Assembly (NCBI GenBank): GCA_017445995.1
Contig: JAFSRT010000007.1
Location: 1-64,000, forward strand
Direction: 5' to 3'
DNA length: 64,000 nt
Source: Clostridia bacterium
Lineage (GTDB): Bacteria > Bacillota > Clostridia > Christensenellales > Borkfalkiaceae
The notes under the pieces are model-generated. The model was not told where the DNA came from. It ran no database searches and saw nothing but the letters and a program-made list of their open reading frames with translations. The translations under genes and the position numbers were made by a program. Below are positions 1 through 3,931 of the stretch, piece after piece; the first letter of the stretch is position 1; each line of letters starts with the position of its first letter.

Positions 1-140
1 CTTTCATCAAAGCTTTAGAAGAATATATTTATTACTACAATAATGAGAGAATATCTCTTAAATTGAAAATGAGTCCGGTTAAATACCGAACTCAATCTCA
101 AATAATTTAATTTTTTGTCTAAACTTTTGGGTTCACATCA
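1..140 (+). mobile_element. Right end of an IS3-family insertion sequence (partial)
   Basis: The window opens inside an insertion sequence: the last codons of an IS3-type transposase are followed, after a short AT tail, by a terminal inverted-repeat-like sequence at about 116-140. Read inward from position 140 it begins TGATGTGAACCCAAAAG, the pattern of IS150-group ends. The left end and any target-site duplication lie outside the window, so completeness cannot be judged. The element ends about 33 bases past the 3' end of lexA, which is convergent to it. Confidence 0.75.
3..110 (+). CDS. IS3-family transposase OrfB, C-terminal end (partial)
   Basis: The frame is open from the window edge and ends in TAA at 108-110. 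The 35 visible residues include ALEEYIYYYNNERI and, shortly after, KMSPVKYR. This is the well-known tail of the DDE integrase domain of IS3/IS150 transposases, in which a YIxYYNxxRI segment precedes a (G)MSPxxYR segment. The usual Gly before MSP is not present, a small deviation. The catalytic DDE residues are upstream of the window. The match to the family tail is strong, but whether the whole gene is intact is unknown. Confidence 0.8.
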   Translation, partial: FIKALEEYIYYYNNERISLKLKMSPVKYRTQSQII

Positions 141-883: not shown

Positions 884-1066
884 ATGGCAAAAAAATGTAT
901 TTTATACGATAGAATATGTAATGACTGCGGTGAGTGTGAGATAGACGACGTTTGCGAACTTGACCCGAATAAAAAGTGCGATAACTGTGAAAAGTGTTTG
1001 GAACTTGATAAAAATTATAAAATAATTAAAATAACGAAGATAATAACCGACGAAAACGATAATTAA
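884..1066 (+). CDS. Small eight-cysteine protein of unknown function
   Basis: A 60-residue protein with a good Shine-Dalgarno and its own promoter. It has eight cysteines (positions 5, 12, 15, 18, 24, 32, 35, 38), including two CxxCxxC blocks (12-18 and 32-38) around the motif DPNKKCDNC, and a lysine- and acid-rich tail. The pattern suggests metal binding, either zinc or iron-sulfur, but the spacing is not that of a standard 2[4Fe-4S] ferredoxin. There is no signal peptide or membrane segment. It is divergent from lexA and followed by a strong bidirectional terminator, so it is transcribed alone. The function is not recognised. That it is a real gene is supported by promoter, ribosome-binding site and terminator. 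Confidence 0.75.
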   Translation: MAKKCILYDRICNDCGECEIDDVCELDPNKKCDNCEKCLELDKNYKIIKITKIITDENDN

Positions 1067-1101
1067 AAAATAAAAAGTGGCAATCGCCACTTTTTATTTT
1101 T
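1066..1101. terminator. Bidirectional terminator
   Basis: Ten-base-pair stem AAAAAGTGGC / GCCACTTTTT (1072-1081 with 1086-1095), four-base loop AATC, A-run before and T-run after. It serves both the small gene and the convergent recombinase gene, overlapping the latter's last codons. Confidence 0.85.
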
Positions 1102-2149
1102 TATGCAGAGTTATGCTTTGCGACGCTTTTTTTCTTACGTCCTCGGTTATCGCCGCATAGTGGCGCTTTGTTGTGTTTACGTCTTTATGACCAAGGCAGT
1201 CCGCAACGGCGTAAATATCGCCGGTTTCTCTATAAAGATTAGTGCCGAAGGTACTTCTTAATTTATGCGGTGATATTTTTTTAAGCGGTGTAACTATTAA
1301 AGCATATTTTTTCACTAATTCCTGAACGGCGCGGGTTGAAATACGCTTATTTTGTAAAGAAGTGAATAGGGCGCGTTCGTTATCGGGGATTTCCCTGTTA
1401 TTAGTTCGCTGGTCAAGATAATCCGCTAAAACCGATTTAACTTCGTCGTTAAAAAACAAAACGGCACGGTTTCCGCCCTTTCGGGTTACTATAAAACTGT
1501 TTGTATTTATATCGATATCTGAACAGTCTAACCCGACTAATTCGCTGATACGTATTCCCGTGCCTAAAAACAGGGTAATTATCGCCGTATCGCGAAGTTT
1601 AAGGCTGTTGTGGTAAGAAAACTGCCTTTTAGTAAGCCCTGAACCCGATTCTACGGCGTAAAGAATATCGCTTATTTCGTCTACTTTTTCGTTAGAATCA
1701 AGCCTTATAATCTCTTTTTCGTGAATCTTCGGCATTTCAACCTTGGTCGGCACGTTAGAAGTAAGGGCGTTTTTATTATAGAAATATTTATAAAACGAAC
1801 GAAGAGTGGAAAGTTTACGCGCTTTTCCTGTTGCCGAACACTTTTCTTCCTTGCCGTTTATCGTATAATGATTTAAATAACTTAAAAAATATTCGATATC
1901 GGACGACTCTAATAGGTCAATATCTTTTAAAGATATCTCTTCAATTTTTTTACCGCGAAAAACCTTTTTAGATAAAAAATCGAAAAAAACCCTTAAATCG
2001 TAAACGTAGTTTAAGCGCGAAAGGGGTGAAGTTCTGTTTTCGACGCCGATTAAAAAATCTTCGACGTAATACGGCATAGTCTTTAATATCTGATTTATTC
2101 TGTCGATGCAGTTAATTTCTCTCTTTTCAAAATAAGATCTCTCTTTCAT
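1094..2149 (-). CDS. Tyrosine recombinase, XerC/XerD-like
   Basis: Breaks and rejoins DNA through a 3'-phosphotyrosine. The 351-residue protein has an N-terminal SAM-like core-binding domain (about 25-130) and a C-terminal catalytic domain with all expected residues: Arg200 (GTGIRISEL), Lys224 (TRKGG), His295 and Arg298 (HKLR), His321 (LGHKD) and Tyr331. It is slightly longer than XerC/D (about 300 aa) because of a longer N-terminus and an insert near 150-180. Proximity to lexA rather than to integrated genes argues for a resident Xer-type enzyme rather than a prophage integrase. A -10 box lies six bases before the ATG and no ribosome-binding site is seen. Two dyads shaped like Xer sites lie upstream. 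Whether it is the dif recombinase is not proven. Confidence 0.9.
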   Translation of the reverse strand: MKERSYFEKREINCIDRINQILKTMPYYVEDFLIGVENRTSPLSRLNYVYDLRVFFDFLSKKVFRGKKIEEISLKDIDLLESSDIEYFLSYLNHYTINGKEEKCSATGKARKLSTLRSFYKYFYNKNALTSNVPTKVEMPKIHEKEIIRLDSNEKVDEISDILYAVESGSGLTKRQFSYHNSLKLRDTAIITLFLGTGIRISELVGLDCSDIDINTNSFIVTRKGGNRAVLFFNDEVKSVLADYLDQRTNNREIPDNERALFTSLQNKRISTRAVQELVKKYALIVTPLKKISPHKLRSTFGTNLYRETGDIYAVADCLGHKDVNTTKRHYAAITEDVRKKASQSITLHKK

Positions 2150-2155
2150 ACCGGT

Positions 2156-2184
2156 ATTATATCAAAGATTGCGCAAAAAGTAAA
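2156..2184 (-). promoter_or_regulatory. Recombinase promoter (TTTACT-17-TATAAT), predicted leaderless
   Basis: Minus-strand TTTACT (2179-2184), 17-bp spacer, TATAAT (2156-2161), then ACCGGT and the ATG. The predicted transcription start coincides with the start codon. The promoter spacer and -35 lie inside the first dyad (2169-2196). Confidence 0.7.
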
Positions 2185-2196
2185 TATTTTGCGCAG
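2169..2196. repeat. Dyad 1 on motif TGCGCAAAA, dif-like 11-6-11 layout
   Basis: TGCGCAAAA (2170-2178) and TTTTGCGCA (2187-2195) form a perfect 9-bp inverted repeat. Read as 11-bp arms with a 6-bp centre GTAAAT the arms agree at 9 of 11 positions. It covers the -35 and spacer of the recombinase promoter, so a bound protein would control that promoter. Confidence 0.7.
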
Positions 2197-2322
2197 AATT
2201 ATTTTTCTATGTTTCTAAATTAAAGGACGTAATGGGGAAGATATCAACATTTATACAAGATAAATATCGTTATATTTTTACTTGCTTTTTTACGTATATA
2301 CTATGGGGAATAGATATATAAC

Positions 2323-2350
2323 TATGCGCAAAATAACGCTTTTACGCATA
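2323..2350. repeat. Dyad 2 on motif TGCGCAAAA, dif-like 11-6-11 layout
   Basis: TATGCGCAAAA (2323-2333), six-base centre TAACGC, TTTTACGCATA (2340-2350). The arms are inverted repeats with one mismatch, and the 28-bp 11-6-11 arrangement is that of Xer recombination sites. It repeats the core motif of dyad 1 about 155 bp away. The two centres differ (GTAAAT versus TAACGC). Confidence 0.65.
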
Positions 2351-2743: not shown

Positions 2744-3931
2744 ATGGATAAATCTTCTATAAGTAGTGATTTAATTCGCGGACATATCGATACTATTATC
2801 CTTCATTCATTAAAATCTGGCGATAAGTTTGCGCAACAAATCGGCGACGTTGTTAAAGAAAAAAGCGACGGCGAATATGCAATCAATCAGGCAACTTTAT
2901 ACAGTTCGCTTAAAAGGTTAGAAAAATTAGAATATATTAAAGGCTATTGGCACGATACTATCGGTGGTCGTCGTCGTTATTTTAACTTAACCGAAGCGGG
3001 TAAAAATTATGTTGACGATAATTTATCTAATTGGGCTTTTTCTCGTGCGATTATCGATAAACTTATGGATTATAGCGCACCGTCGGAAATTAAAACCGTT
3101 TACGTAAGTAATAAAGACGTAAAGACTGAACAAATCCCCGTTATAAATAAAATTGAAACAGATAATACCGACGACGTTATAAAAGAAAAAACGGATAAAC
3201 CCATTTTTGACGCCGTTAAAGATGATAAAGACGTTAATTACAGGGCAATTTTAAGCGGGCTTATAAACTACTCTAATAAAACGGTTGAAGAAAATCAGGA
3301 AATATTGCCGATAAACGCGATTGACAGCGAAAAAGTCGTTGAAATCGAACCTACGGTTAAAAACTTTAACGAAGAAATAACGAGTGATTTTACCGCTAAA
3401 AAATATGAAAATTATTCTAGTATAGATTATAAAGACGTAATTGAAATTGCAAAAAAAGATGATTTTTCAATAAGAGTTTCATCGAAAAAATCTATAAAAA
3501 CGGGTCAATTATCGATAAATAAAATAAGGCTTTTTTCTGGATTATCCGTGTTTTTGCTTTCAATTTTGATTATGCTTACCGTTATTACGGCGTATAACGG
3601 CGATTTTTCCGTTAAAAGTTCGTTGCCTATTATTTTATCGTTGATTGCTCTTGCCGTAATTCCAACGGTTTCTTTAGTTTTCTATATTAAAAAACCGCAA
3701 AAATCGGTTAAATCGGTAAACGGGGACGGTATTTTAATCAGCGCGATAGTCGTATTTAATTTGCTTTTAATAACGTTTGCGATAAATATGCTGTTTAATA
3801 ACGATTTTTATAATGCATACAACTTTATCGTTTCCTTTATTTTCCCTGCGATAGTTTATATCGAAATATTTTTATTCTATACCTTTATTTTTGCATATTC
3901 AAAATTGCAAAGATTTAAAGTCAATAATTAG
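2744..3931 (+). CDS. PadR-family regulator fused to a four-helix membrane domain
   Basis: 395 residues. Residues 10-108 form a PadR winged helix: the recognition-helix region reads NQATLYSSLKRLEKLEYI and the wing GGRRRYFNLT. Residues 110-255 are a charged, low-complexity linker. Four hydrophobic segments follow at about 264-284, 294-315, 329-351 and 361-385, ending in a short basic tail. PadR proteins are normally soluble repressors of about 110-180 aa, so this is probably a membrane-anchored one-component sensor, with the DNA-binding domain in the cytoplasm. It stands alone between its own promoter and a terminator, so its target cannot be read from operon context. The inverted repeat at 2631-2664 upstream is a candidate operator. 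Confidence 0.85.
   Translation: MDKSSISSDLIRGHIDTIILHSLKSGDKFAQQIGDVVKEKSDGEYAINQATLYSSLKRLEKLEYIKGYWHDTIGGRRRYFNLTEAGKNYVDDNLSNWAFSRAIIDKLMDYSAPSEIKTVYVSNKDVKTEQIPVINKIETDNTDDVIKEKTDKPIFDAVKDDKDVNYRAILSGLINYSNKTVEENQEILPINAIDSEKVVEIEPTVKNFNEEITSDFTAKKYENYSSIDYKDVIEIAKKDDFSIRVSSKKSIKTGQLSINKIRLFSGLSVFLLSILIMLTVITAYNGDFSVKSSLPIILSLIALAVIPTVSLVFYIKKPQKSVKSVNGDGILISAIVVFNLLLITFAINMLFNNDFYNAYNFIVSFIFPAIVYIEIFLFYTFIFAYSKLQRFKVNN

Follow-up and report, generated by a model that had tools for sequence, protein, structure and literature searches.

The dif site is the place at which a bacterium separates dimeric chromosomes before cell division, and dif systems with a single recombinase have been described in streptococci and lactococci, in Helicobacter and Campylobacter, in the Legionellales and in archaea. 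A literature search with partial coverage of subscription papers, and hence of limited evidential weight, returned no single-Xer system from the Clostridia. The locus considered here lies in a 64,000-nucleotide stretch of DNA from a Clostridia bacterium, the whole of which is termed the window. Its dyad at 2323–2350, taken together with the gene at 1094–2149, would represent the chromosomal dif of a single-recombinase Xer system and the only recombinase of that system, a reading to which we assign a probability of roughly 0.9 on the strength of comparative sequence analysis.

The XerS/difSL system of streptococci and lactococci shares with this locus a single recombinase of about 351–356 aa and a site that is both adjacent to its gene and located at the terminus, and XerS is also the best-scoring NCBIfam model for the window enzyme (211.9 bits). 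Nevertheless, this score misses the XerS cut-off of 267, identity to the Bacilli XerS proteins (L245–L252) is about 30%, and the enzyme belongs to a separate clostridial clade of 54 rows (support 99/95), whose placement is limited by long branches. The clostridial proteins further display HKLRST in place of HKLRH and a one-residue insertion before the catalytic tyrosine, while difSL is a 31-bp site with an 11-bp centre and unequal arms (PMC5357621), in contrast to the symmetric 11-6-11 arrangement of the window site. Site and enzyme would thus work like XerS/difSL but fall outside its defining score, clade and site geometry. Adjacency to the gene is no argument against a dif, for dif and xer are also neighbours in the single-recombinase systems of XerS and XerH (PMC5357621).

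XerH/difH of Helicobacter and Campylobacter likewise combines a single recombinase with a site near the gene and the terminus, but the difH arms are AGTTATGAAAA and AAAAGTTTGA (PMC5357621, PMC2731167). The XerL/dif system of the Legionellales also has one recombinase and a strongly palindromic site near the terminus; in Legionella pneumophila, however, more than 400 kb separates xerL from dif (PMC9765430). With XerCD/dif the locus shares the 11-6-11 geometry, whereas the window arms are near-identical and no XerC/XerD pair was found in its own genome. The motif TGCGCA(A/T)AA resembles the XerC arm of the Escherichia coli dif.

The recombinase and its lineage

The gene at 1094–2149 (minus strand) codes for a 351-aa protein that domain and NCBIfam models, the tree and the alignment identify as a single Xer tyrosine recombinase of an XerS-like clostridial clade. 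It combines a Phage_integrase domain (3e-32) with a SAM-like N-terminal domain, scores 143–160 with the XerC, XerA and XerD models, and retains in alignment the full catalytic set of Arg, Lys, His-x-x-Arg, His and Tyr. Its own genome, which is 95.6% complete, yields five PF00589 matches; as the four others look like phage- or ICE-type integrases or fragments thereof, it is the only Xer-type enzyme seen, and no second Xer recombinase was found among the five. The same genome also codes for a translocase with an FtsK gamma domain (79.9 bits).

None of 61 genomes from relatives passes the XerD cut-off, one that 10 of 14 control genomes fail to reach as well. Some members of the order (G040, G044 and G054) do carry an XerD-like protein scoring 207–280 bits, below the cut-off, and a single enzyme is therefore not universal in the order. 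A further assembly (G023, contigs C5 and C73) holds a pair of xer genes with one dif apiece, reflecting either a mixture of strains or a genuine duplication.

In a tree of 69 proteins, with long branches and only four XerD-like rows, the window recombinase groups with the 54 clostridial proteins and is separate from those of Bacilli that score above the XerS cut-off. The clade appears nearest to, yet outside, streptococcal XerS, the long branches limiting how exactly the relation can be read. The sequence around the extra residue is LGHKDVNTTKxHYAA in most clostridial rows, and this residue is absent from the Bacilli XerS rows compared. Among relatives that bear a name, Candidatus Borkfalkia and further MAGs of Christensenellales type come closest, which makes Christensenellales the probable order. 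Across the class, a protein of this kind (E ≤1e-40 to the XerS model) is present in 72 of 293 sampled Clostridia genomes and 53 of 180 genera, and none of the 293 passes the XerS cut-off. The present reading would add this clade to the single-recombinase dif systems, with a near-perfectly symmetric site in the order of the window; such a site served by one enzyme would furnish a clean test of what sets the order in which strands are exchanged if both arms are almost equal.

As for the neighbourhood, a cysteine-rich 60-aa ORF without Pfam or NCBIfam match lies between lexA and xer (884–1066, plus strand). On the other side of the site, a PadR-type regulator with a long hydrophobic C-terminal region (2744–3931, plus strand) is a conserved neighbour common to G017, G001 and G053; as far as known, it is not part of the mechanism.

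The second dyad as a candidate chromosomal dif

The dyad at 2323–2350, to which no strand is assigned, reads TATGCGCAAAA-TAACGC-TTTTACGCATA and lies in an intergenic region. The first-pass annotation had described it as a 28-bp 11-6-11 arrangement with arms matching at 10 of 11 positions and had proposed that it is a Xer-type site lying ahead of a tyrosine recombinase gene; inspection of the sequence bears out the description exactly, and the present analysis supports the proposal as well. The bases just outside the arms point to a 14-6-14 consensus spanning 2320–2353. On the gene strand the window centre is GCGTTA, which differs from the genus consensus GCCGTG at three of the six positions, a point against the dif reading.

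Palindromy by itself was rejected as evidence for a site, since a dyad of at least 10/11 arises in 16% of shuffles of the AT-rich spacer, a figure that also lends what plausibility there is to the dyads being chance palindromes in AT-rich DNA. When at least three G/C per arm are demanded, such dyads appear in 3 of 2000 shuffles. The pattern is unique in the window (expectation 0.01) and in the 1.19-Mb genome at up to one mismatch. A chance origin of the second dyad is refuted by its order-wide conservation, its covariation, its single copy and the zero count of control matches, and as an account of the dyads chance has a negligible probability.

The comparison with sister genomes that had been proposed shows strong conservation of the second dyad. 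The same dyad lies upstream of the recombinase gene in relatives, typically at 70–700 bp and at 2–3 kb in one group. A scan of the 61 genomes, counting the gene at E ≤1e-20 and the dyad at up to two mismatches, recovered the gene in 44, the dyad in 41 and both in 40 (by reading the two tables against each other); that is, 40 of the 44 gene-bearing relatives have the dyad as against one of the 17 gene-less ones (G015, a weak match), with 0–1 control matches per genome at this tolerance. The gene without the dyad occurs in G016, where it is truncated at a contig end, and in G046, G049 and G057, of which the last three count against the dif reading. This association does not count as independent evidence, because neighbours may be lost together, as may happen in incomplete assemblies; the position of the site relative to the terminus, unlike co-occurrence with the gene, does.

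The strict motif was found in 101 of 198 sampled genomes of the order and, among the matches listed, exactly once per positive genome, with a control count of 0. The aligned sites are sharp-edged, information falling outside AWC-TATKCGYAAAA-N6-TTTTRCGMATA-GWT. The two arms vary together, with matches at 806 of 896 arm positions where shuffling gives 730 on average and 759 at most; the test is inflated by related sequences, yet several of the alternatives recur across different families. A rule by which the 6-bp centre would always point the same way with respect to the gene was considered and rejected, as its orientation is opposite in different families. Two other Clostridia loci with this enzyme, L218 (−64) and L220 (−88), have beside the gene a dyad with different arms, TATCGGATAAA-TATCTG-TTTTTCCGATA. 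In the group whose dif is 2–3 kb away from xer, the DNA just right of dif often contains an inverted repeat of the type GCATAATAGC...GCTATTATGTTA (L077, L082, L085, L086, L088, L098, L101, L102, L106, L110, L113, L115).

In relatives the site is located at the replication terminus. The maximum of cumulative GC skew lies 4.3 kb from it in G011, 2.1 kb in G029 and 3.7 kb in G044, and in all three both skew and coding strand flip across it. In two single-contig genomes, with skew sampled at 20 places each, the sign turns from plus to minus inside the 40-kb interval that holds the site (2,270,629 in G123; 771,591 in G191); it turns from minus to plus between 0.86 and 0.97 Mb in G123, the antipode of the site being at 0.99, and between 2.27 and 2.40 Mb in G191, with the antipode at 2.26. 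In G038 the skew maximum is at 50 kb, the site at 64 kb and the gene at 118 kb, so that the maximum is 14 kb from the site and 68 kb from the gene; from these distances it follows that the site tracks the terminus rather than the gene. The genome of the window itself displays negative skew on the right side of the site; as the contig starts at base 1 of the window, the left replichore is invisible there and the terminus position is taken from relatives. The contig begins within what by eye is the end of an IS3-type transposase gene (window 1–110), which may explain an assembly break near the terminus. The site could serve as a practical terminus marker in uncultured gut bacteria.

A single copy in the genome, opposite the origin, had been named as the mark of a dif, and the genome search together with the relatives returns that answer, which gives no support to the earlier leaning toward a mainly regulatory arrangement. 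The view that the second dyad is merely an operator for the recombinase's own gene can point to its location upstream of that gene and to about 11 members of the genus in which the site starts 0–15 bp from the predicted transcription start, a distance at which binding of the recombinase would affect transcription. Such a role alone would leave unaccounted for the location at the terminus opposite the origin, its retention there in G038 with the gene 54 kb off, its place beside padR in G053 with the gene on a different contig, the 2–3 kb separating it from the gene in one group, and a provirus inserted in it (see below); we regard this view as very improbable.

With 2323–2350 as the chromosomal dif, the mechanism may be pictured as follows. 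An odd number of crossovers yields a chromosome dimer; two copies of the recombinase would bind the near-identical arms of each dif, and the two dif sites would come together in a synapse at the septum, with FtsK probably in control. The dimer would then be resolved through exchange of strands over the 6-bp centre. The first dyad (2170–2195) would serve not for recombination but as an operator, by which the enzyme may reduce transcription of its own gene.

The promoter dyad and possible autoregulation

The first dyad, the proposed operator at 2170–2195 (no strand assigned), is made up of two TGCGCAAAA half-sites, at 2170–2178 and 2187–2195, set 8 bp apart around the −35 box of the predicted recombinase promoter (2156–2184, minus strand). 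By inspection, the −35 element TTTACT (2179–2184) falls in the 8-bp gap between the half-sites, the 17-bp spacer (2162–2178) contains one of them, and the −10 element TATAAT occupies 2156–2161, with the predicted transcription start at about the ATG (2149–2147). Thus, at the level of sequence, the dyad overlaps the promoter of the recombinase's own gene, and the earlier placement of it (as 2169–2196) over the −35 and spacer is upheld. In the window (2147–2161), as in L012 and L015, the −10 box ends 6–7 bases before the recombinase ATG, and a leaderless transcript is predicted.

The first-pass annotation had reported the motif as an inverted pair at both places. Both pairs are indeed present, but the half-sites of the first are 8 bp apart, a different geometry, and when it is forced into 11-6-11 its arms match at 9 of 11 positions; a view of the two dyads as one kind of site finds no support. 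The half-site sequence common to both might suggest that they recombine with each other, inverting or deleting 2169–2350. Their centres differ, as had been rightly held against a simple exchange, and so do their gap lengths; the first dyad is not conserved and the segment contains no gene. Nothing further favours such a switch, and the sequence gives no hint of a segment that inverts or is deleted; we consider it extremely unlikely.

Sister species do not keep the first dyad as a whole, and what they retain is one half-site at its promoter position: the half-site at 2187–2195 recurs there in L012, L013 and L030, that at 2170–2178 is seen in the window only, and the complete arrangement is confined to the window, with one 8-bp-gap analogue in L053. 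Between dif and the start codon, nine exact half-sites occur in 6 of 22 genus loci as against a shuffled mean of 0.45 (maximum 4 in 2000), the relatedness of the species causing the shuffles to overstate significance. In L011, L012, L013 and L030 the half-site stands just before the −35 box. In about 11 other genus members, the consensus promoter ends 0–15 bp before dif, which covers the predicted start.

These patterns are consistent with the recombinase site playing both roles, with dif doubling as the operator where the promoter abuts it, and a separate promoter-proximal half-site or dyad taking over where dif lies further upstream, as in the window. Its support comes from the excess of half-sites, their position before the −35 box and the overlap of dif with the predicted start; against it are about five genus loci with neither arrangement, promoters that are themselves predicted, and the shared ancestry that weakens the half-site count. 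We give it slightly under an even chance. The first dyad probably serves as an operator for autoregulation rather than as a site of recombination, and we infer autoregulation by the recombinase from these features. No account of XerS autoregulation was found in the literature search, where the partial coverage of subscription papers makes this weak evidence. A broader and more tentative proposal, possible rather than probable, is that a large part of the Clostridia resolves dimers by a single recombinase, whose lineage would be separate from those of XerS, XerH, XerL and XerCD, with its half-site used both for dif and for an operator that sets the level of the enzyme. The operator would be dif itself where this lies at the transcription start, or else an additional half-site, or a dyad with 8-bp spacing, by the −35 box.

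Viruses at the site

Viruses that integrate at dif through the host Xer enzymes include CTXphi and gokushoviruses (PMC7062461, PMC3091885, PMC3089051). In G017, the padR contig runs into a perfect dif and then into unrelated DNA, while the xer contig bears AAAGGGTAAAA-GCCGTG-TTTTGCGCATA 125 bp upstream of the gene, with its centre and one arm in common with the perfect dif. The insert, which is split by a contig break such that its two ends are not joined in the assembly, codes for a rolling-circle Rep (Rep_OBD, 1.3e-15), small hydrophobic proteins and a membrane-anchored P-loop protein that we read as Zot-like; the latter has no Pfam match and matches weakly a PHROG of unknown function. By its gene layout, the insert is an inovirus-like provirus in dif with att-type junctions. 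In a row on the viral contig L170 lie lexA, an xer that belongs to this clade (54%), the dyad, and a microvirus with a capsid protein (Phage_F, 2.4e-116) and a replication protein. Both cases parallel CTXphi and the gokushoviruses, the difference being that here the site is that of a single recombinase and of Clostridia. The recombinase is probably exploited by small integrase-less viruses for entry into the chromosome at dif, and the site may offer an entry point for tracing such viruses.

The hybrid site left by the provirus at −125 in G017, and a degenerate dyad at −124 in G001, at the xer end of a Rep_1 element, raise the question of whether the first dyad of the window began as a second dif that has since decayed, left behind when a virus or plasmid once inserted between dif and the gene. 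Its gap of 8 rather than 6 bp, the retention of one half at this promoter position by three sister species that lack any element, and the lack of gene remnants in 2197–2322 speak against such an origin, which we deem unlikely. In G001 itself, xer and dif are separated by a 3.4-kb stretch that encodes a sigma-like protein and a Rep_1 replication protein (L203:10800–14350).

The strict motif was also recovered in 20 IMG/VR contigs, with the reversed control in 0, and at least seven of these show it in the vicinity of a terminase gene (assigned from PHROG matches or by eye). The terminase-linked phage contigs may use the single-Xer enzyme of the host. Tailed-phage contigs with the strict motif near the large terminase gene are L152, L153, L158, L159, L161, L163, L165 and L166; the motif is often between the small and large terminase subunits, and no Xer gene is present on those stretches. 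In L151, L154, L155, L164 and L167, the motif is near short, mutually similar-looking genes (dUTPase-like by eye), and the centres are mostly GGATAG or its complement.
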